Under the pieces are notes generated by a model. The model was not told the origin of the DNA and did not search any database. It saw only the letters and a list, made by a program, of their open reading frames with translations. Positions 31,600-62,815 of a stretch of DNA of 64,000 nt are shown here, in pieces. The stretch comes from Ferrovibrio sp. Lineage in GTDB: Bacteria > Pseudomonadota > Alphaproteobacteria > Ferrovibrionales > Ferrovibrionaceae. Positions within the stretch are counted from its first letter, which is position 1, and each line of letters begins with the position of its first letter. Made by a program: the position numbers and the translations under genes. The stretch is from contig JAGOQS010000001.1 of assembly GCA_017991315.1 (NCBI GenBank), forward strand, positions 558,001 to 622,000, in the 5' to 3' direction.

Positions 31600-33030
31600 C
31601 TATACCCCGTCGCCTGTTACCCTGGCATGGCCAGATTGCCACATCTCCCAGCCGGCGAGCAGCAGCAGGGGCAGTGGCAACCAGAGCGGCAGGCCGCCAT
31701 ACCAGAGCGCGAACGGTGCCAGCAGTACCAGCAGGGCGAGCAGTATCCAGGCGCCCACCGCCGGCTGTTGCGGACAGAGCTTGCGGCCCTGGAGATACAG
31801 GATCAGGCCGGTGATCAGATTCACCACGGCGATGGCCAGGGCGGCGCCGCCAGCGCCGCTGAGCTGCATCAGCGGCCAGGCCAGCGGCACATAGAGCGCC
31901 AGCGCCAGCAGGTTGTTCTGTGCTGCCCAGGTGGTGTCTGGCAGCCGCAGCAGGCCGGCGCCAAGGGGCGATTTGATCAGGATGAGATATTGGCTCAGCA
32001 GCAGGGCGGCGAAGAGCGGCGCCAGATCGAGCCGTTTTTCGCCGGTGAAGAGCAGGAACAGCCAGGGTTGCAGCAGCACCAGCAGCAGGTAAAGCAGCGC
32101 GCCGGCGGCAATGCTGAGATTGGATACCAGGCCGATGATCGCGGCGGCGCGCGAGCGCTGCAGCGCATGATGCACCAGCCCGCCCCAGGCCATGAAGAAA
32201 GGTAGCGCCAGCAGGGCATCGAACAGCACCGCGATGCGGGCGGCGATCAGATAATCGGCGGCGGCCTCGATGCCGACCCAGGCGGCAAGCAGAAAGCGAC
32301 TGAGGGAATCGAGCGAATAGCGCAGCAGCAGGCCGGCCATCAGCGGGATGCCATAGCGCAGCAGCGGCTGCACCTGTGCGCCATCCCAGGCAAACAGCGG
32401 ACGGCGCCGGATGCCGGCGAGCCCGATCAGCGCTGCGAGCGTCTGGCCGCAGGTCTGGCCGATCAGCAGGCCGGGCAGGCCGAGGCCAGCCCATAATACG
32501 AGGACACAACTGGCGAGCAGCCAGACCGCCAGATTGCCCACCGCCAGAAAGCCGGCCAGCGCCACGCGGCGCTCGGCGCGCAATTCGGTGATCAGCAGGG
32601 TCTGCACCGCGCCGCTGAGCATCAAGGGCAGCAGCAGCCAGGCGGAGTCGAGCGGCGCGGCATCGAACAGCGCCATTGCCTTGGCGCTGCCATAGAACAG
32701 CGCCAGCAGGCTGCCGGTGACGATGCCGGAGGCCAGCGCCACCAGCAGCGCGGTGCCGAGCAGCGCTGGGCGGGCCGATTCGGGCTGGCGCGCATGGTGG
32801 TAGAGATAGGCGAATTTCAGGCCCAGCAGGCTCAAGGTGAGGCCCGGCGTGGCGCCGGCCTCCACCAGGCTGTAGAGCCCGATCTCTTCCGGCGACAAGG
32901 CCGTGATCATCAGCGGCAGCAGCAGCAGGTTGCCCAGCGCCAGCAGGCCGATGGAGACCAGATAGCCGCCAAAATCGCGGTAGAGTGCGTGGCGGAAATC
33001 CTCCGGGCTGTGCAGATCGGCGGTATTCAT
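31600..33030 (-). CDS. Polysaccharide/oligosaccharide flippase (Wzx/MATE-like)
   Basis: A 476-residue integral membrane protein with about 12-14 hydrophobic helices and the family pattern ending in a long helix-rich C-terminus (ILLALLVLLAPFALWYGGLPLWLPLPLLLLAGWE). Flippases of this type move lipid-linked sugars across the inner membrane. It is divergent from the TPR-glycosyltransferase at 33107 with only 76 bp between them, so a shared control region is likely. It shares strand with the Pat-type gene, which starts 7 bp after its stop, but no functional link to that gene is obvious. The sugar is unknown. Confidence 0.75.
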   Translation of the reverse strand: MNTADLHSPEDFRHALYRDFGGYLVSIGLLALGNLLLLPLMITALSPEEIGLYSLVEAGATPGLTLSLLGLKFAYLYHHARQPESARPALLGTALLVALASGIVTGSLLALFYGSAKAMALFDAAPLDSAWLLLPLMLSGAVQTLLITELRAERRVALAGFLAVGNLAVWLLASCVLVLWAGLGLPGLLIGQTCGQTLAALIGLAGIRRRPLFAWDGAQVQPLLRYGIPLMAGLLLRYSLDSLSRFLLAAWVGIEAAADYLIAARIAVLFDALLALPFFMAWGGLVHHALQRSRAAAIIGLVSNLSIAAGALLYLLLVLLQPWLFLLFTGEKRLDLAPLFAALLLSQYLILIKSPLGAGLLRLPDTTWAAQNNLLALALYVPLAWPLMQLSGAGGAALAIAVVNLITGLILYLQGRKLCPQQPAVGAWILLALLVLLAPFALWYGGLPLWLPLPLLLLAGWEMWQSGHARVTGDGV

Positions 33031-33106: not shown

Positions 33107-34636
33107 ATGCCCACCGAATTGCACAGCGCGATTGCCGAGGCCCTGGCCGCGGCGAAACAGATGATCCGAGTCGGCGATTTCGTCGGCGCCTCCAAGTTGT
33201 CCGACAAGCTGCTGCGGGCAGCGCCGCGCCATGGCGAAGTGCTGCTGCTGCTCGGCCATGTGAAACTCTGCCAGGAAGATGCCGCCGCCGCCTCGCAGGC
33301 CCTGCGCGACGGCCTGGCGATCCGCCCCGATATCGCCGAAGGCTGGGTGCATCTCGGCCTTGTCAGCCGCATGCTGGGCGATAGCAATGGCGCCGCTGCG
33401 GCTTTTGGTTATGCGCTGAAGCTGGATCCGAAGAATTACCAGGCGATGAATGGCCTCGGCTCGCTGGCGCAGGATGTCAGCGATGTGCCTGCTGCCGCAG
33501 ACTGGTTCCGTCGTGCCGCTGAAGCGGACCCGACCGCGCCGGTCCCGCGCAAGAATTACGGCTACAATCTCGGCGTAATGGGGCGGCTGGAGGAAGCCGA
33601 GGCGCAATTCGCCAAGGCGCTGGCGCTCGAGCCGAAGAATAATGAGACGCGGACGGATTACGGCATGTTCCGGCTTTCCTGCGGCGATTTCGCCACAGGT
33701 TGGGATCTGTATGAAGGCCGCTGGCGCAGCCGTTCCTTCAAAGAGCCGGATTGGGGCGGCGCCCGATCGCGCTGGCGGGGCGAGCCGCTGGATGGTCGGC
33801 ATTTGCTGCTTTGGGCTGAGCAGGGCATCGGCGATCAGGTTTTCTATGGCACCATGCTGAATGATGCGCTGCGGCGCGCGAGTGCTGGCGGCGCCGGGCA
33901 TGGTCGCGTCACCATTGCCGTTATCGACCGGCTGGTGCCACTGTTCGAGCGTTCGCTGGCCGGGATGTCGATGCCAGGAATCAGCGTCACCGTGACACAG
34001 CGGAAGGGAGCGGCGGCTGAAGCCGACCTGCAATGTCCGTTCGCCAGCCTGGGCGGCATCCTGCGCCGCTCGGCAGCTGATTTCGCCACCCATGACGGCA
34101 ACTATCTGCTTGCCGACCCGGCGCGGCGCGATGAATTGCGCCGCCGCTATCAGGCCTTGGCACCGGGCAACCGGCTGATCGGCGTTGCCTGGCGCAGCAT
34201 CAATCCGTTTCTGGCGAAATCAAAGAATTTGTCGCTGGGTGATCTGGCCCCGGTTTTCGCCATACCTGGCATAACCTGGGTGAATCTGCAGCATGGCGAT
34301 GTGGCGGCGGAAATCGCCGCAAGCGGTGTGCCCTTGCACTGCGATTCCGAGATCGATGCCTTCAACGATCTCGATGGCCACGCGGCCCAACTGGCGGCAC
34401 TGGATGGTGTTGTCGCGATCAGCTGCTCCACGGTGCATCTCGCCGCAGCTCTCGGCGTGCGCGTCGATCTGCTGCTGCCGCGCGGGCCGGGCCGGCTGTG
34501 GTACTGGTCGCGGCCGGAACTGCCGGGGGCCGAGCGCAGCCGCTGGTACAAGTCGGTGCGGCTGTGGCATCAGCAGCAGCCGGGTGAGTGGCAACAACCG
34601 GTCGCGGCCGTGGCCGAGGCGCTGCGCCATGGCTGA
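33107..34636 (+). CDS. TPR-glycosyltransferase, FlmG-like, paralogue 1
   Basis: A 509-residue protein: tetratricopeptide repeats over about residues 5-205 (for example AEGWVHLGLVSRMLGDSNGA and its successors), then a GT-B-like domain with LLLWAEQGIGDQVFYGTML, ADLQCPFASLGGILRR, GVAWRS, a WVNLQHGD segment and DGVVAISCSTVHLAAALGV near the end. The layout resembles Caulobacter FlmG, which binds flagellin by TPRs and transfers pseudaminic-type sugar to it. It overlaps the next paralogue by 8 bp. Its start is preceded only by a weak GAGAG. Confidence 0.72.
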   Translation: MPTELHSAIAEALAAAKQMIRVGDFVGASKLSDKLLRAAPRHGEVLLLLGHVKLCQEDAAAASQALRDGLAIRPDIAEGWVHLGLVSRMLGDSNGAAAAFGYALKLDPKNYQAMNGLGSLAQDVSDVPAAADWFRRAAEADPTAPVPRKNYGYNLGVMGRLEEAEAQFAKALALEPKNNETRTDYGMFRLSCGDFATGWDLYEGRWRSRSFKEPDWGGARSRWRGEPLDGRHLLLWAEQGIGDQVFYGTMLNDALRRASAGGAGHGRVTIAVIDRLVPLFERSLAGMSMPGISVTVTQRKGAAAEADLQCPFASLGGILRRSAADFATHDGNYLLADPARRDELRRRYQALAPGNRLIGVAWRSINPFLAKSKNLSLGDLAPVFAIPGITWVNLQHGDVAAEIAASGVPLHCDSEIDAFNDLDGHAAQLAALDGVVAISCSTVHLAAALGVRVDLLLPRGPGRLWYWSRPELPGAERSRWYKSVRLWHQQQPGEWQQPVAAVAEALRHG

Positions 34637-36161
34637 TGCTGTTATGGTCCGGCTGCAGGCGGCATTGATGCAGCATCAGGCCGGCGACCTCGCGGCGGCA
34701 CGGGCCGGCTATGAAGCCGTGCTGGCAATGCAGCCGGAACAGGCCGATGCATTGCATCTGCTCGGCGTACTGGAGGATCAGCAGGGACACCATGCCGAAG
34801 CCGTGGCGCTGATCCGCCGCGCCGTTGCCGCCAGTCCGCGCGCCGCGAATTTCCATGGCAATCTCGGCAATGCCTTGCGGGCGCTGGGCGACCATGCCGA
34901 GGCCGAGGCCGCCTATCGCGAGGCCAACCGGCTAGATCCGGGTGATCCCGAGGCGCTCTATAACCTCGGCAACCTGCTGCGCGACATGCGCAGGCTGGGT
35001 GAGGCGGAAGCTGCCTTCCACGCCACCCTGCGCCTGGCACCGAGGCATCGCGATGCGCTGCATAACCTCGCCATGCTGCTGTGGGAAGAATATGACGCGC
35101 CGGAAGCCGATGCCTTTTTCGCGCAGGCACTTGCTCTCACCCCGCAGGATCATGCACTGCGCATGCATTACGGCCTCTATTGCCTGGGACGCGACCGCTT
35201 CGATCCCGGCTGGGCGCTCTATGAGTCGCGCTGGCAGAGTGGCCTCTATCCCGAACGCGACTGGGGCATGGGCAAGCCGCTGTGGCGCGGCGAACCGCTC
35301 GCGGGCCGCCATCTGCTGCTGTGGGGCGAGCAGGGTGTCGGCGACCAGATGCTGTATGGCACCATGCTGCGCGAGGCGATTCAGCGGGCTGGTGCGGGCC
35401 GTGTCACGATTGCCGTCAGCGACCGTCTGGTGCCGCTCTATGCCCGTACCTTCAGCGCTCTCGGTGTTGCCGTGACCACGCGCGAAGGCGCGGCAGCAGC
35501 CGCTGATCTGCAATGCCCCTTCGCCAGCCTTGGCGGCATCCTGCGCCGTGCGCCGGCGGATTTCGCCGGGCATGATGGCGCCTATCTGCGCGCTGATCCG
35601 CAGCAGCGCGATGCGTTGCGCCAGCGCTATGCTGCCTGGGCGAAACCCGGCGACCGCCTGCTCGGCATTTCCTGGCGCAGCACCAATGCACGGCTGGCGG
35701 ATCACAAGAGCATTCCGCTGCCGCTGCTTGCGCCGCTTTTCGCGCTGCCCGGCATCACCTGGATCAGCGTGCAATATGGCGATGTGGCCGCAGATATCGC
35801 CACCGCCGGCGCACCGGTGCGGATCGATGACAGCATCGACGCCATGCGTGACATGGAAGGCTTCGCGGCGCAGCTTGGCGCGCTGGATGGCATCGTCTCG
35901 ATCAGCAACAGCGCCGTGCATATGGCCGGCGCGCTGGGGGTGTCCTGCGATCTGCTGCTGCCGCTCGGGGCCGGGCGGCTCTGGTATTGGCCGCGACCAG
36001 CCCCCGTACTGACGGCTGTACGAGCGGCAGTATCGGATAGTGATACCGAATCTGACGCAAAAAGCCGCTGGTACGGCTCGCTGCGGCTCTGGTATCAAAC
36101 TGTCACGGGCGATTGGCGCGCGCCAATAGCGAACCTGGCGGGTTGCCTCAACCCGAGCTAG
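34629..36161 (+). CDS. TPR-glycosyltransferase, FlmG-like, paralogue 2
   Basis: A 510-residue protein with the same two-part design: about five TPRs in the first 190 residues (ALRALGDHAEAEAAYREANR and EALYNLGNLLRDMRRLGEAE), then the shared glycosyltransferase-like block (LLLWGEQGVGDQMLYGTML, ADLQCPFASLGGILRR, GISWRS, WISVQYGD, IVSISNSAVHMAGALGV). The ATG at 34629 lies inside the 3' end of paralogue 1 (8-bp overlap), so the two are translationally coupled; longer in-frame starts fall within paralogue 1. The flagellin promoter begins about 55 bp past its stop. Paralogues 1 and 2 are clearly related but not recent copies. Confidence 0.72.
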   Translation: MADAVMVRLQAALMQHQAGDLAAARAGYEAVLAMQPEQADALHLLGVLEDQQGHHAEAVALIRRAVAASPRAANFHGNLGNALRALGDHAEAEAAYREANRLDPGDPEALYNLGNLLRDMRRLGEAEAAFHATLRLAPRHRDALHNLAMLLWEEYDAPEADAFFAQALALTPQDHALRMHYGLYCLGRDRFDPGWALYESRWQSGLYPERDWGMGKPLWRGEPLAGRHLLLWGEQGVGDQMLYGTMLREAIQRAGAGRVTIAVSDRLVPLYARTFSALGVAVTTREGAAAAADLQCPFASLGGILRRAPADFAGHDGAYLRADPQQRDALRQRYAAWAKPGDRLLGISWRSTNARLADHKSIPLPLLAPLFALPGITWISVQYGDVAADIATAGAPVRIDDSIDAMRDMEGFAAQLGALDGIVSISNSAVHMAGALGVSCDLLLPLGAGRLWYWPRPAPVLTAVRAAVSDSDTESDAKSRWYGSLRLWYQTVTGDWRAPIANLAGCLNPS

Positions 36162-36214
36162 AGGCTTGATTTTCTGAAACAATTCCGGTTTTCGGGGATA
36201 TTTCAGGCGAGACG

Positions 36215-36267
36215 TTAACCTAACTGTTAAAAAATCGCTTGACGGGTATGTCCCGCAACGCTAGTCT
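36215..36267 (+). promoter_or_regulatory. Candidate flagellin promoter with a TTAA-N8-TTAA element
   Basis: TTGACG (36239-36244), a 17-base spacer and TAGTCT (36262-36267) resemble a sigma-70 promoter. Upstream, TTAA occurs at 36215-36218 and 36227-36230 with an 8-base spacer, one longer than the CtrA consensus TTAA-N7-TTAA. No TGGC-N7-TTGC sigma-54 element was found. The predicted leader of about 48 bases contains a small hairpin (TCGACT/AGTCGA, 36272-36293) and an AGGAG eight bases before the start. Confidence 0.4.
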
Positions 36268-36321
36268 CACCTCGACTTCAAAAAAGGAGTCGACCTCAAT
36301 CCTAGAACAGGAGTGATTACC

Positions 36322-37146
36322 ATGGCAAATTCCGTAAATACCAACATCGGTGCTCTCGTCGCGCTTTCTTCGCTGCGCTCGACCAACACTGACCTCGACA
36401 AGACCTCCAAGCGCATTCAGACTGGTTTCCGCGTTGCGGACGCCCAGGATGACGCCGCCGTTTTCGCCGTCGCCCAGGGTATCCGCGGCAACGTCAAGGC
36501 CTATGCCTCGGTGCAGTCCTCGCTGGCTGCCGGTGAAGGCCTCGGCCAGGTGACTGGCGCCGCGCTGACCGGCATTTCGAACCTCGTGGGTGACCTCAAG
36601 GCCAAGTTCGCCAACCTGGCGGACGGCTCGCTGACCGCTGAACAGCGCACCACCTACCAGAACGACGCCACCCAGATCCTGACCCAGATCACGAACTTCG
36701 TGAACCAGGCGACCTACAACGGCAAGAACCTGTTGAACACGGCTTCCACGGTGACCTTCGTGGCCGACGTGTCCGGCACCACCTTGACCCTGTCGACCGG
36801 CACCACCACCCTGCTCAACGAAGCCACCAATCTCGGCACCGTGATCAGCGGCTTCACCGATGCCGCGCAGTACTCGGCCTCGCTGGCCAACCTGAGCACC
36901 TTCGAAGGCTTCGTGAACTCGATCTCCGCGCAGGTTGCCGCGCAGAGCCGTTCGCTGTCGCTGCAGCGCAGCTTCGTGAACGACCTGGTGGACGCGACCA
37001 AGAAGGGCCTCGGCGCCCTGGTGGACGCGGACGTCGCCGCCGAATCCGCTGCCCTGCAGTCCCTGCAGGTCCGCCAGCAGCTCGGCGTCCAGGCGCTCTC
37101 GATCGCCAACCAGCAGCCCAACACCCTGCTCAGCCTGTTCCGCTAA
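36322..37146 (+). CDS. Flagellin
   Basis: A 274-residue flagellin, the short type found in Caulobacter and relatives (D0 and D1 helices with almost no variable domain). The N-terminal part is SVNTNIGALVALSSLRST with SKRIQTGFRVADAQDDAA, and the C-terminal part ends QQLGVQALSIANQQPNTLLSLFR, both polymerisation domains. Ser/Thr-rich central stretches (residues about 140-185) provide candidate O-glycosylation sites. It lies between TPR-glycosyltransferase paralogues, followed by flbT and flaF. ATG 36322 is favoured by AGGAG eight bases upstream over a GTG at 36313. A strong terminator follows. Confidence 0.95.
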   Translation: MANSVNTNIGALVALSSLRSTNTDLDKTSKRIQTGFRVADAQDDAAVFAVAQGIRGNVKAYASVQSSLAAGEGLGQVTGAALTGISNLVGDLKAKFANLADGSLTAEQRTTYQNDATQILTQITNFVNQATYNGKNLLNTASTVTFVADVSGTTLTLSTGTTTLLNEATNLGTVISGFTDAAQYSASLANLSTFEGFVNSISAQVAAQSRSLSLQRSFVNDLVDATKKGLGALVDADVAAESAALQSLQVRQQLGVQALSIANQQPNTLLSLFR

Positions 37147-37186
37147 TAGCGGTCAAGCTCATCCGATTGCCGGCATCAGCCGGCGG

Positions 37187-37217
37187 AAAAGGGGCCGAAA
37201 GGCCCCTTTTCTTTTTG
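37187..37217 (+). terminator. Intrinsic terminator after flagellin
   Basis: A 10-bp stem (AAAAGGGGCC paired with GGCCCCTTTT) with a GAAA tetraloop is followed by CTTTTTG. It lies 40 bp past the flagellin stop and separates it from flbT, so flagellin is probably made from its own abundant mRNA. Confidence 0.93.
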
Positions 37218-37347
37218 CCATAATGTGACGGCCTTGAGGTAAACCGCGCGGGGTGCTTCCCTAACTGCGGACAATCGTCTAGCGTCGGGCCAATAACGTC
37301 CATGCAGAAAGAGGACCGGGGGCTATCATGGCGCCCGGAGGTTGTCC

Positions 37348-37764
37348 GTGCCGCTCATTATCACGCTTAAAGCAGGCGAGAAGTTTATCCTGAATCGGGC
37401 AGTGCTGAGTCTGTCCAAGTCAGCCAGCATCGTGATCGAAAACAAGGCCTCCTTCCTGCGCGAAAAACATATCATGCGCCTGGAAGACGCAGTCACCCCA
37501 GCCAAGAAAATCTACTATCTATGCCAGCTCACATATTTGTGGGAAGATCGCTTCGAAGAATTTTATCCCCAGATCAAGCAGCTTTGTTTGGACTTCGTTA
37601 ATGCCGCTCCGAGTACCAATGCCTTGATCGCGAGTATCGGTGCGGCCTTGGCGCAACAGGACTTTTTCCGCCTCCTGAAGCATGCCCGCCGGCTGATTGA
37701 AGTGGAGAGGAGATTGCTCGATGTCGGGAATAAATCCGTACACCAAAGCCCAGAACGTCCTTGA
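37348..37764 (+). CDS. flbT: Flagellin-translation repressor FlbT
   Basis: A 138-residue protein matching FlbT: LIITLKAGEKFILNRAVL at the start, a basic REKHIMRLEDAVTPAKKIYYLCQL centre and a helical C-terminus. In Caulobacter FlbT binds the flagellin mRNA leader and restrains its translation until the hook is complete. A GTG at 37348 lies six bases after GGAGG and is taken as the start; a TTG at 37342 abuts the same Shine-Dalgarno and is less likely. It overlaps flaF by 44 bp. Confidence 0.9.
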   Translation: MPLIITLKAGEKFILNRAVLSLSKSASIVIENKASFLREKHIMRLEDAVTPAKKIYYLCQLTYLWEDRFEEFYPQIKQLCLDFVNAAPSTNALIASIGAALAQQDFFRLLKHARRLIEVERRLLDVGNKSVHQSPERP

Positions 37765-38083
37765 GACGCCGCGCCAGATTGAATATCGGCTGTTCTCGTC
37801 GGTGACGCGTGCGCTGATGGATGTGCGTTCGCTGATGCAGAGCAAACATCCCGGCGATGTCGCGCGTGTTGCCTATGCCATCGGCTGGAACCGAGATGTC
37901 TGGAACCATCTGATGCCGGAAGTGCTGGACGAGAAGAATCCGATGAACCGCGACCTCAAGCTGTCGCTGATCAACATCTGTATCTTCGTCAACAAGCGCA
38001 CCGACGAAATCACCGAAGGCCGCTCCACCGATATTGAACCGCTGATCGCGGTCAACCGCAATATCATGGAAGGCCTGAAGTAA
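37721..38083 (+). CDS. flaF: Flagellar biosynthesis regulator FlaF
   Basis: A 120-residue FlaF with the family features NPYTKAQNVLETPRQIEYRLFS at the N-terminus, a YAIGWNRDVWNHL segment and the LINICIFVNKRTDEI helix. FlaF is needed for flagellin production or secretion and works opposite to FlbT. The start at 37721 follows GAGAGGAG by about eight bases, giving a 44-bp overlap with flbT, so the pair is translationally linked. The third TPR-glycosyltransferase begins six bases after its stop and is probably in the same transcript. Confidence 0.9.
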   Translation: MSGINPYTKAQNVLETPRQIEYRLFSSVTRALMDVRSLMQSKHPGDVARVAYAIGWNRDVWNHLMPEVLDEKNPMNRDLKLSLINICIFVNKRTDEITEGRSTDIEPLIAVNRNIMEGLK

Positions 38084-38089
38084 GGCCCG

Positions 38090-39733
38090 ATGAATGGCGT
38101 GCCGGAGGAAGCCGCAGCCATAGACAAGCTGTGGCTGGAGGCCAAGAGTGCGCGCCTGTCCGGCAATCTGGCTGCTTCCACGGCGCTGCTGCGCCAGGCC
38201 CTGGCCATAGCGCCAGACAATCCGCAGATATTGCGCCAGCTTGCCATACAGTTACGCCATAGCGGTGCCCTGAACGAGGCCCTGGCCCTGCTTGAGCCGG
38301 CACTGCCGCAGGCGGTCGAGCATCCCGATCTTGCCCTCGCCCTGGCCGATTGCCTGCTACTGCAGAGCGGACCGCGTGCCGCGCTCTCCGCCCTGGATTA
38401 TGTGCTGCGCCAGCGTGGCGACCGGCCGGTGGAGCTGCTGCTCGGCATGGCGCGGCTGCATTACATGCAGCATGATTTTGCCCAGGCGGAAGCGGCGTTG
38501 CGCGAGGTGGTGGTGCAGCCAGCGGCGCGGGCGGAAGCCTGGGCGCTGCTTAGCGCCATTGCCATCGAACTCGGCCGCGACGAGGAAGCCGGTAATGCCA
38601 GCCGGCTGGCGCTGAAGATGGATCCCAAGCAGGTGATCGCACTCGGCACCAAGGGCCAGCTTGCCGCCGAGGCTGGCAACAGCGATGCCGCGCGGCAATT
38701 CTATTCGCGCGCCCTGGCGCTGGAGCCGGATAACGCCCGCATCCACTACATGCTCGGCCTGCTCGATCTCTCGCTCGGCAATTATGCCGCGGGCTGGCGC
38801 GGCTTTGCCTGGCGTCACCGGGTGACACCGCGCATCGCCGCCGATTTCAGCTACGGCCTGCCAGCCTGGCAGCCGGCGGAGACCGCACCGCAGGGCCGCC
38901 TGCTGATCTGGGGTGAGCAGGGCATCGGCGACGAGATCATGTTTGCCGGCATGGTGAGCGGGTTGCTGGTGCGCGAGGTGCGGCCGCTGCTGCTCACCGA
39001 TCCGCGCCTGGCGCCGCTTTTTTCGCGGTCGCTGCCGGGTATCGATGTGGCCGCGCGCCACCCGGGATTTGCCCCGCGCAGCGAAGGCATCACGCGTCAG
39101 ATAGCGGCTGGCGATCTCGGTGCGCTGCTGCGCCCAGACCGCGCGGCGTTTCCGGTGCGCAGCCGCTACCTTGCCGCAGACCCGGCAAGGGTACGCCACT
39201 TCCGCGCCAAATATGCCGAATTGGCGCGCGGCAACAAACTGATCGGCATTGCCTGGCGCAGCAGCAACGCGGCGCAGGGGCCTTACAAGTCGCTGGCGCT
39301 CGGCGATTTCGTGCCGCTGCTGCGGCAGCCGGGCTGCTGCTTCATCAATCTCCAATATGGCAACAACGCCGCCGAGATCGCGGCCTTGCGCGAGACGCAT
39401 GGCCTGGTGCTGCATGACGACGACGAGGTCGATCCTTTGCGCTCGCTGGAAGACCAGGCGGCACAGATTGCGGCGCTGGATTGCGTGGTCAGTACATCGA
39501 ATTCCGCCGTGCATCTGGCCGGCGCGCTGGGGGTGCCGACCTGGCTGCTGCTGCCGCACCGGGGGCGAGGCGTGCAGTGGTATTGGGGGCAGGCCGGTGC
39601 CGAGACGCCATGGTACAGCAGCCTCCGGTTGTTGCGATCTGCCGCCAGCGAAACCCTGGCCGTGCAGCTCCAGCGGAGAATGGCCGAGTTCCCCGCCTGG
39701 CTGGCCGATTTCCGCGCTGTAACCGCTAATTGA
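38090..39733 (+). CDS. TPR-glycosyltransferase, FlmG-like, paralogue 3
   Basis: A 547-residue protein with TPRs over about residues 10-240 (QLAIQLRHSGALNEALALLE and later ARQFYSRALALEPDNARIHY), then the glycosyltransferase-like part with RLLIWGEQGIGDEIMFAGMV, GIAWRSSNAAQGPYKSLAL, FINLQYGNNAAEI and CVVSTSNSAVHLAGALGV. It is more diverged from paralogues 1 and 2 than they are from each other; for example the ADLQCPFASL segment becomes RQIAAGDLGALL. It begins 6 bp after flaF, so flbT, flaF and this gene look like one operon. Confidence 0.72.
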   Translation: MNGVPEEAAAIDKLWLEAKSARLSGNLAASTALLRQALAIAPDNPQILRQLAIQLRHSGALNEALALLEPALPQAVEHPDLALALADCLLLQSGPRAALSALDYVLRQRGDRPVELLLGMARLHYMQHDFAQAEAALREVVVQPAARAEAWALLSAIAIELGRDEEAGNASRLALKMDPKQVIALGTKGQLAAEAGNSDAARQFYSRALALEPDNARIHYMLGLLDLSLGNYAAGWRGFAWRHRVTPRIAADFSYGLPAWQPAETAPQGRLLIWGEQGIGDEIMFAGMVSGLLVREVRPLLLTDPRLAPLFSRSLPGIDVAARHPGFAPRSEGITRQIAAGDLGALLRPDRAAFPVRSRYLAADPARVRHFRAKYAELARGNKLIGIAWRSSNAAQGPYKSLALGDFVPLLRQPGCCFINLQYGNNAAEIAALRETHGLVLHDDDEVDPLRSLEDQAAQIAALDCVVSTSNSAVHLAGALGVPTWLLLPHRGRGVQWYWGQAGAETPWYSSLRLLRSAASETLAVQLQRRMAEFPAWLADFRAVTAN

Positions 39734-59873: not shown

Positions 59874-60326
59874 GTGGCCGAGTTGCTCTTCTACCACCTG
59901 ACGCGTCGGCGCCTGGAGCAGGTGCTGCCCGACCTGCTCGGGCGGTCGCTGCAGCGCGGCTGGCGCGCGGTGGTGAAATGCGGCAACGCCGAGCGCGTCG
60001 AGGCGCTGGCGGGCGAACTCTGGACCTATGACAAGGCCGCCTTCCTGCCACATGGCACCAAGCTCGATGGCCACCCGGAACGCCAGCCGATCTGGCTGAC
60101 GGCGGCGGATGAACGCCCGAATAATGCCGAGGTGCTGTTCCTGGTCGATGGTGCCGACAGCACGTTGCAGGGTGATTTCACCCGCGTCTGCGATCTGTTC
60201 GACGGCAACGATGAAGAAGCGGTGGAGAGCGCGCGCCAGAGATGGAAACGTGCCAAGGCCGCCGGCCATACGCTTACCTACTGGCAGCAGAATGAAAACG
60301 GCTGGGTGAAGGCGGCGGAAGGCTGA
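59874..60326 (+). CDS. holC: DNA polymerase III chi subunit HolC
   Basis: A 150-residue chi subunit that links the clamp loader to single-strand-binding protein. Family motifs: LFYHLTRRRLEQVLPDLL at the N-terminus, VVKCGNAERVEALAGELWTYD, FLPHGTKLDG and QPIWLTAADERPNNAEVLFLVDG. GTG 59874 has GGGAG five bases upstream and starts at the conserved AELLFYHL; GTG 59868 and ATGs at 59850 and 59856, inside the repeat edge, are alternative in-frame starts. pepA-holC adjacency is common. Confidence 0.88.
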   Translation: MAELLFYHLTRRRLEQVLPDLLGRSLQRGWRAVVKCGNAERVEALAGELWTYDKAAFLPHGTKLDGHPERQPIWLTAADERPNNAEVLFLVDGADSTLQGDFTRVCDLFDGNDEEAVESARQRWKRAKAAGHTLTYWQQNENGWVKAAEG

Positions 60327-60328
60327 GC

Positions 60329-60889
60329 ATGCTGAATGCGCAGCATCATGCCAGGGTGCCGCCGGCTTTGTCGGCGGCCCTGGATGTGGGCGAGAGATTG
60401 CTTTGGTGGGGCATGCCGAAACAAGGTTTCGTTCTGCGCCGCAGTGATGCCAAACTGATTCCCTTCTCGCTTTTCTTCCTTGGCTTTGCCGTGTTTTGGG
60501 AATGGCAGGTTCTGCGCGCCTCTGAACCGGTTTTTGCCCTCTTTGGCATACCGCTCATTCTGGCAGGATTGTACATCACTGCCGGCCGCTTCGTTCACGA
60601 TGCCATACGGCGCCGCAATATTGTTTATGGCGTGACAGATCAGCGCGTGTTGATCGTCACCCCTCGAAACTTGAAGAGTATCGAACTATCGGCGCTGACC
60701 GAGATTCACCTGGAAAAAACAGCCAGCCATGTAGGCTCAATCGTATTCGGGCCTGAGTTGCAGCCTGTGGCTTTCGGTCCGGGTGTTGGCGCATGGGCCG
60801 GGCGTCCGGCAGCACCCGCTTTCGAGTTCATCCCGGAAGCCGAGAAGGTTCTGAATACCGTCCGTGCGGCTAAAGCAGCGGCTAGCTGA
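60329..60889 (+). CDS. Hypothetical membrane protein with bacterial PH-like domain
   Basis: A 186-residue protein starting three bases after holC. Two hydrophobic segments (about residues 45-60 and 67-85) are followed by RRRNIVYGVTDQRVLIVTPRN, a beta-rich stretch typical of small bacterial PH-like domains (YGVTDQRVLI is characteristic), then a Gly/Ala-rich tail. Such proteins are membrane-anchored and of unknown role. Base composition is a little more AT-rich than in holC. It is convergent with the ABC-F gene. Confidence 0.65.
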   Translation: MLNAQHHARVPPALSAALDVGERLLWWGMPKQGFVLRRSDAKLIPFSLFFLGFAVFWEWQVLRASEPVFALFGIPLILAGLYITAGRFVHDAIRRRNIVYGVTDQRVLIVTPRNLKSIELSALTEIHLEKTASHVGSIVFGPELQPVAFGPGVGAWAGRPAAPAFEFIPEAEKVLNTVRAAKAAAS

Positions 60890-60892
60890 GCC

Positions 60893-62815
60893 TCAGGCCG
60901 CGTCCTCAGCCTGCGCTTCTTCCAGCTTCGACTGGGCGTCGAGCCAGGCTTCCTCGGCGGCTTCCAGTTTTTTCGCCACATCGCCATGCTGCTTCTGCAG
61001 TTCGGCCTGTTTGGCCGGGCTCAGCTTGGTGTAGGTGTCCGGGTCGGCCAGGGTGGCATCGAGCCGCATCTTCTCGGCGCTGAGCTTGGCCATGGCTTTT
61101 TCCGCGTTATGCACAGCAACGCGCAGCGGCGCCAGCGCCTGGCGCGCGGCGGCGGCGGCCTTGCGGTCGGCCTTGCGGTCGGCGACGGGGGCGGCAGCCG
61201 TGCCGCCCTTCAGCTTCACGCTGGCAGCAGCGCGGCGGCGGTCGGCGAGCAGCTTGGCGTAATCGTCGAGGTCGCCGTCGAAATCCTTCACCGTGCCGTC
61301 GCCCACCAGCCAGAAGCGGTCGGCGCAGGCTTCCGCCATGTGGCGGTCATGGCTCACCAGGATCACCGCGCCCTTGAATTCGTTCACCGCCTGCACCAGC
61401 GCATCGCGCGTATCCATGTCGAGATGGTTGGTCGGCTCGTCGAGGATCAGCAGATGCGGCGCATGATGCGTCACCATGGCGAACAGCAGCCGCGCACGCT
61501 CGCCGCCCGAGAGCTTGCCGGCCACGGTCTGCGCCTTTTCGCGCACCAGGCCGAAGCTGCCGAGCCGCGTGCGCAACTGCTCGATGGTGGCTTTTTCCAT
61601 CAGGTCCTGCAGATGCTCCACCGGCGTGCGGTTTTCATCCAGGATGTCGTCCTGATCCTGCGCGAAATAGCCGACCCGCAGCTTGCCCGAACGCTGCAGC
61701 TTGCCGGCCTGCGGCTTCAGCGTGCCGGCCAGGATCTTGGCCAGCGTCGACTTGCCGTTGCCATTGGCGCCAAGCATGGCGATGCGGTCTTCCATGTCGA
61801 TGCGCATATCCAGGTGGCGCAGCACCGGCTTGTCGGCGGTGTAGCCCGCCGTGAGGTTGTCGAGCACGATCAGCGGCGGCGGCAATTCCTCCGGGTCGGG
61901 CAGGCGGAAGATCACGTTGGGATCTTCAATCGCCGCCGCGATTGGCTGCATCTTCGCCAGCATCTTCAGGCGGCTCTGCGCCTGGCGCGCCTTGGAAGCC
62001 TTGGCGCGGAAGCGGTTGACGAAATCCTCCATATGCTTGCGCTGCTCGGCCTGGCGCGCGGCAAAGGCATTCTGCTGCTCCATGCGGGCGCGGCGCTCGG
62101 CCTCGAAGGTGTCGTAATTGCCGCGATAGAGCACCAGCCTGGTGTTGTCGATATGCAGGATATGTTCGATGGCCGAGTTCAGGAAATGCCGGTCATGGCT
62201 GATCAGCAGGAAGGTGCGCGGATAGGTTTTCAGATAGCCTTCCAGCCACAGCGAGGCTTCGAGGTCGAGATGGTTGGTCGGCTCGTCCAGCAGCAGCAGG
62301 TCGGGCTCGGCGAACAGGCAGCCGGCCAAAGCCACGCGCATGCGCCAGCCGCCCGAGAACGTATCCAGCGGCCGGTTCTGCATCTCTTCATCGAAACCGA
62401 GGCCGGCGAGGATCACGGCGGCGCGGGCGGGTGCGGCATGGGCATCGATCTCGGCCAGCCGCATATGCACGGCGGCGATGCGCTCGGCGTCCTCCATGCT
62501 GGAAGACTCTTCCAGTTCCTCGGCCTCGATCAGCAGCGCCTCGCGCTCGGTATCGGCGGCCAGCACATAGGCAATCGGCGTCTGCTCGCCGCCCGGCGGC
62601 TCCTGCGGCAGCTTGGCAATCTTGCAATCAGCAGGCAGCTCCACGCCGCCGGTTTCGGTCTGCAGGTCGCCGGTGATGATCTTGAACAGCGTCGATTTGC
62701 CGGTGCCGTTGCGCCCCACCAGGCCGACTTTATGCCCGGCCGGGATCGTGGCCGACACATGGTCGAGCAGCACACGGCCGGCGATGCGGTAGGTCAGGTC
62801 ACGAAATACAAGCAT
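60893..62815 (-). CDS. ABC-F family ATPase (Uup-like)
   Basis: A 640-residue protein with two ABC domains and no membrane segment. Domain 1 has Walker A GRNGTGKST and signature FSGGWRMRVALA; domain 2 has GANGNGKST and LSGGERARLLFA. Between them lies an arm/linker rich in Arg and Lys (NRFRAKASKARQAQSRLKML). The C-terminal ~120 residues are a charged coiled coil (ADRKADRKAAAAARQA through AEEAWLDAQSKLEEAQ), as in Uup. ABC-F proteins act on ribosomes or on DNA/RNA structure. It is a single-gene unit convergent with the PH-like gene. Confidence 0.9.
   Translation of the reverse strand: MLVFRDLTYRIAGRVLLDHVSATIPAGHKVGLVGRNGTGKSTLFKIITGDLQTETGGVELPADCKIAKLPQEPPGGEQTPIAYVLAADTEREALLIEAEELEESSSMEDAERIAAVHMRLAEIDAHAAPARAAVILAGLGFDEEMQNRPLDTFSGGWRMRVALAGCLFAEPDLLLLDEPTNHLDLEASLWLEGYLKTYPRTFLLISHDRHFLNSAIEHILHIDNTRLVLYRGNYDTFEAERRARMEQQNAFAARQAEQRKHMEDFVNRFRAKASKARQAQSRLKMLAKMQPIAAAIEDPNVIFRLPDPEELPPPLIVLDNLTAGYTADKPVLRHLDMRIDMEDRIAMLGANGNGKSTLAKILAGTLKPQAGKLQRSGKLRVGYFAQDQDDILDENRTPVEHLQDLMEKATIEQLRTRLGSFGLVREKAQTVAGKLSGGERARLLFAMVTHHAPHLLILDEPTNHLDMDTRDALVQAVNEFKGAVILVSHDRHMAEACADRFWLVGDGTVKDFDGDLDDYAKLLADRRRAAASVKLKGGTAAAPVADRKADRKAAAAARQALAPLRVAVHNAEKAMAKLSAEKMRLDATLADPDTYTKLSPAKQAELQKQHGDVAKKLEAAEEAWLDAQSKLEEAQAEDAA

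Follow-up and report, generated by a model that had tools for sequence, protein, structure and literature searches.

FlmG, the closest described counterpart of the locus analyzed here, has been presented as the member that defines a class of flagellin glycosyltransferases guided by TPRs, in which a TPR domain binds flagellin and a GT domain modifies it (PMC7591256). The enzyme of Caulobacter crescentus (CCNA_01524, 596 aa) works with pseudaminic acid made by NeuB, and the way in which TPRs choose glycosylation sites has been called poorly understood for O-linked systems (PMC7591256). A literature search returned no paper on Ferrovibrio flagellin glycosylation. In a 64,000-nucleotide stretch of a Ferrovibrio sp. 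genome (the window; its genome is called G000), we found three predicted TPR-glycosyltransferases, GT1 to GT3, around a flagellin gene. Their general role is very likely flagellin glycosylation by TPR-guided GT-B enzymes, the O-linked role that the original prediction had given them; activity, acceptor and donor are what we infer from the observations below. Under the best explanation, which we hold to be somewhat more probable than all others together, the three are TPR-guided flagellin O-glycosyltransferases, of which GT1 and GT2 would attach the same sugar at different positions.

Gene order and conservation of the locus

The genes of GT1 (33107..34636, 509 aa), GT2 (34629..36161, 510 aa), flagellin (36322..37146, 274 aa, start read from the sequence; Pfam Flagellin_N 8e-20 and Flagellin_C 4e-9), the flagellin translation regulator FlbT (37342..37764, Pfam FlbT 1.3e-31), the flagellin secretion chaperone FlaF (37697..38083, Pfam FlaF 3.3e-25) and GT3 (38090..39733, 547 aa) all lie on the plus strand. 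GT2 starts within an 8-bp overlap with the 3' end of GT1, and GT3 starts 6 bp past flaF. Coordinates and Pfam matches thus confirm that three such enzymes surround flagellin and flbT-flaF, with the third tied to flbT-flaF. Between flagellin and flbT (37147..37341, plus strand), a GC-rich stem-loop followed by a T-run can be read from the sequence as the likely flagellin terminator, which suggests that flagellin and flbT-flaF-GT3 may form separate transcripts; this stem-loop is absent from the list of the terminator scan, and promoter and terminator scans of the locus performed no better than shuffles, with uninformative sigma-54 patterns. A gene for a Wzx-like polysaccharide flippase (31600..33030, minus strand; Pfam Polysacc_synt_3 7.7e-6, above the cut-off) is divergent from GT1 at the island edge.

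Each glycosyltransferase combines a TPR arm (approximately aa 1-189 in GT1, 1-185 in GT2 and 1-225 in GT3) with a GT-B head (approximately aa 190-509 in GT1). Pfam detected TPRs in all three proteins and no further domain in any, and the heads had no match in Pfam at E ≤ 5. Of the three, GT3 has diverged most, as had been predicted, since GT1 and GT2 share 49% identity in the alignment and GT2 and GT3 only 37%. The motif EQGxGD is exact in all three, whereas the late motif occurs as the variants SCSTVHLAAALG in GT1, SNSAVHMAGALG in GT2 and SNSAVHLAGALG in GT3. A profile search of the window's genome (72.6% complete) found three GT domains of this family, all at the locus, and in G041, a genome of the same species that is 99% complete, the count was likewise three of three; in both genomes they sit inside 6.6 kb around flagellin. 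Because the only GTs of this family in the genome all sit there, their clustering at flagellin is not a matter of chance.

The description of flagellin as a single gene stands for the locus and fails for the genome: the genome carries a second copy, 97% identical, at a distance of about 236 kb, and three flagellin genes are present in G041, which rules out a single flagellin per genome. A gene that looks MscS-like by its translation adjoins the second flagellin in the window's genome (L003:9942-11746) and in G006 (L081:6407-8134), and the island of G004 holds two tandem flagellin genes with identical protein sequences (L044:3810-5592).

The island was found in six Ferrovibrio genomes with two to four GTs each: three in G000 and G041, two in G003, and four in G004, G006 and G008, where it is split over two contigs. 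It was absent from G001, G002 and G005 (97 to 100% complete) and from G007 (87%). It is bordered at one end by a CoA-ligase/acetyltransferase gene together with the divergent flippase and at the other by an FAD-monooxygenase gene. Three of these species carry a split TPR-glycosyltransferase (L081:4684-6383 in G006, L248:6518-8129 in G004 and L249:6577-8090 in G008), in which the TPR arm with the N-terminal half of the head and the C-terminal half of the head are separate ORFs on opposite strands. It may be an enzyme made from two genes, or else debris that has been conserved; in L081, the site Lys and His are intact in the C-terminal half, and no strong inverted repeats of an invertible switch flank it.

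The family itself is widespread. The search confirmed at least 271 related stretches, from which 79 loci were kept, and most relatives among the matches listed are not beside flagellin. A flagellin gene is present in at least six of the kept loci outside Ferrovibrio, in Pseudomonas and Planctomycetes; a TPR-GT of the wider family shares a locus with flagellin in L115, L131, L120, L132, L139 and L148, whose hosts are Pseudomonas panipatensis, Pseudomonas sp. PDM18 and four Planctomycetes records. Relatives beside flagellin occur in other Alphaproteobacteria too. This wide distribution would suit enzymes that stand next to flagellin incidentally and modify some other target, be it a surface polysaccharide or a different protein, and so would the Wzx-like flippase, which is present in 6/6 genomes with the island and 1/4 without it and is always adjacent to and divergent from GT1. 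Such a flippase should be dispensable for a flagellin pathway in the cytoplasm, and the best explanation, against which this gene counts, leaves it unexplained. However, the GTs enclose flagellin-flbT-flaF in all the island genomes examined except G003, which lacks GT3, and TPR arms suggest a protein acceptor. We regard an acceptor other than flagellin as improbable.

Clade, predicted fold and donor site

To place FlmG, one order was searched with the sequence of the solved flagellin FljL. Genome G416 encodes a flagellin 100% identical to the solved FljL chain and, adjoining it and divergent from flbT-flaF, a TPR-GT that we took to be Caulobacter FlmG because of this neighbor and its published length of 596 aa. 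Of 60 flaF loci surveyed in the class, 18 had a TPR-GT in the stretch retrieved. In the GT-domain tree, a branch supported at 100/98 sets Caulobacter FlmG and 22 similar proteins apart from all 20 GTs of the Ferrovibrio islands, which fall outside this clade. Two residues of the predicted site, K174 and H249 in the numbering of the GT3 head, are present in 20/20 island copies each and in 0/23 FlmG-type rows each.

Of the 16 genomes surveyed, most of which have a TPR-GT close to flbT, flaF or flagellin, 14 contain NeuB; one genome of the FlmG clade, G293, lacks it. Neither G000 (73% complete) nor the same-species G041 (99%) contains NeuB. Since the more complete of the two has none, NeuB-made sugars are unlikely donors in the window's species, and its donor is probably not a NeuB-made nonulosonic acid. 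The island-bearing genomes G004, G006 and G008 do have NeuB. No NeuB gene was found near the island, as it is in several FlmG-type loci; it is either on other contigs or missing, and no donor pathway is encoded beside the island. Among FlmG-type loci, L202 has a cytidylyltransferase gene adjoining the FlmG-type gene, and L212 shows no clear PseH-like gene among its neighbors.

FlmG orthologues with a CMP-activated nonulosonic acid as donor, pseudaminic acid or a different one, would account for the TPR-GT layout, the flbT-flaF neighborhood and the full-length identity to FlmG of approximately 28 to 30%. The tree, the two invariant site residues that FlmG-type rows lack and the missing NeuB rule this orthology out as far as these data go, and we strongly disfavor it, giving it next to no probability. 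On this point the original prediction, which had made the three enzymes members of the FlmG family, is not supported. The findings instead indicate that a second branch, with a different predicted donor site and no tie to NeuB, was recruited to flagellin, one locus holding as many as four copies. In L194:5045-12252 of G280, a genome that lacks NeuB, a pair of flagellins with flaF and flbT is flanked by two TPR-GTs that fall outside the FlmG clade, an arrangement that may have arisen independently as a parallel to the Ferrovibrio island.

An AF2 model of the GT3 head had a pLDDT of 89.8, and its top fold matches were the GT9 structures 1psw, 3tov and 2h1h, along with TibC, a heptosyltransferase that glycosylates a protein. 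The model of full-length GT2 (AF2, pLDDT 89.8) best matched SPINDLY, OGT and XCC0866, with low TM-scores, and a PDB sequence search with the GT2 head gave no match. The predicted TPR and GT-B layout is thus borne out by the Pfam TPRs, the models and the fold matches. The GT3 head model shows the GT9 fold and the full-length GT2 model the TPR plus GT-B architecture of GT41, and the enzymes match the Pfam profile of neither family; hhalign gave a weak local match to GT9 (E 0.0017, probability only 15%) in the stretch that includes the late His motif. By analogy with GT9 and OGT, K174 and H249 would bind the donor, and a GT9/OGT-like nucleotide-sugar site can be predicted in heads that lie outside the FlmG clade. 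The EQGxGD motif, Trp, Lys, Ser and His of this site are invariant in 20/20 Ferrovibrio island copies, at only 36 to 54% identity to the GT3 head. Such invariance despite divergence is hard to reconcile with catalytically dead chaperones or regulators of flagellin, a role that TPR proteins often have as chaperones and that the position of GT3 directly after flaF might suggest; together with the constancy of the GT3 head described below, it makes this reading very improbable.

Separate histories of arms and heads

Positional pairs of GT1 and GT2 from six Ferrovibrio genomes were compared. The TPR arms split cleanly by gene position (support 100/100), the arm of GT1 in the window being of the position-1 type, whereas the heads group by lineage: the four heads of G004 and G008 fall together (100/99), and the two heads of G006 are sisters (94/93). 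Constraining the heads together by position was rejected (p-AU 7e-5), as was constraining the arms to the G004/G008 lineage split (p-AU 1.4e-4, an indicative value since the split was chosen after the head tree). Within a genome, the identity of GT1 and GT2 goes from approximately 22 to 45% over most of the arm to approximately 40 to 84% over most of the head. From these trees and alignments, arms and heads appear to have separate histories and to be swappable parts. Such discordance would follow either from gene conversion of the heads or from an exchange of the arms; it could also arise by neutral gene conversion, which counts against the best explanation.

Additionally, the window's genome was compared with G041, a comparison of just two same-species genomes, of which one assembly is 73% complete, with flanks approximately 99% identical. 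The dS was 0.01 to 0.05 in neighboring genes and 0.15 in flaF, while it was mostly 0.4 to 1 in aa 121-440 of GT1 and 0.4 to 2.0 in aa 1-200 of GT3, its arm. Flagellin had a dS of 0.20, with aa 161-201 only 72% identical, and most of GT2 and the GT3 head were not strongly diverged. The parts replaced between the two genomes are therefore the arm of GT3, a portion of GT1 and the loop that flagellin exposes, with the GT3 head constant, and because dS is high, recombination with a diverged lineage explains them better than rapid point mutation. Within each genome the two flagellins share 97% identity, and between the genomes 93 to 94%; each genome has one loop type, such that the unlinked second flagellin agrees with the island copy in its loop. 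The pattern in these two genomes fits a co-adaptation of arms and acceptor loops, and the joint change of flagellin loop and GT arms between strains also speaks against a polysaccharide or another protein as the acceptor. The other strong diverged block in the part compared lies at 60001-61000 of the window (79 to 89% identity versus approximately 99% around it) and falls at a small ORF that matches bPH_3 weakly and has as its neighbor a protein with two ABC_tran domains.

A sequential assembly, in which the three enzymes build one short flagellin glycan and each adds the next sugar, would agree with several GTs at one locus, with the clearly different head of GT3 (37% identity to GT2) and with a copy number that varies from two to four between species, as glycan length could vary. 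However, GT1 and GT2 have similar, lineage-homogenized heads and distinct arms, the reverse of what differing sugar specificities would give, and we consider this scheme rather unlikely, although GT3 is a possible glycan-extending enzyme.

We favor a different arrangement, in which three cytoplasmic O-glycosyltransferases would modify flagellin before export: the N-terminal TPR superhelix would hold flagellin, and the C-terminal GT-B head would carry the GT9/OGT-like site. The enzymes would work like FlmG though they form a separate lineage, and in the window's species they would probably draw on an ordinary NDP-sugar as donor and not on a CMP-nonulosonic acid. A common head on two conserved arms is what would be expected if GT1 and GT2 placed the same sugar at different places. 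Lineage-homogenized heads point to the same donor and position-conserved arms to different flagellin positions for this pair, and GT3, with its diverged head, would probably add a second sugar or act at another site. We put forward this specific division of labor between arms and heads tentatively, at slightly less than even chances. The discordance lends indirect support, at the sequence level, to the division of labor that had been predicted, and it names no site, sugar or order. It is possible, though we would not expect it, that the locus is a cassette-like flagellin glycotype system, in which arms and exposed loops are exchanged together and heads are kept alike within a lineage; if true, a strain would change where its filament is glycosylated and not the sugar. 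Because arm and head histories separate within one gene pair, the locus provides a natural test of site choice by TPRs.

Comparison with known glycosyltransferase systems

The Ferrovibrio enzymes share with FlmG the N-terminal TPRs, the C-terminal GT-B domain, the EQGxGD motif and a place beside flbT-flaF and flagellin genes. FlmG differs in belonging to a separate clade (100/98), in being divergent to flbT-flaF and a single copy at its locus, and in lacking the Lys and His site residues that the Ferrovibrio GTs keep. Like full-length GT2, SPINDLY and OGT (GT41, with bacterial XCC0866) join a TPR superhelix to a protein-glycosylating GT-B head, but identities are 12 to 17%, TM-scores are 0.3 to 0.4, and there is no GT41 Pfam match. 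The GT9 enzymes WaaF and WaaC and TibC are the best fold matches of the GT3 head and share the stretch with the late His motif; identity is 11 to 14%, the Ferrovibrio GTs have no GT9 Pfam match, and GT9 lacks a TPR arm. Maf flagellin glycosyltransferases resemble the proposed pathway in O-glycosylating flagellin in the cytoplasm before export (PMC4065374). They differ in their domain, as Pfam finds no Maf domain at the Ferrovibrio locus, and they use nonulosonic acids (PMC11339370).
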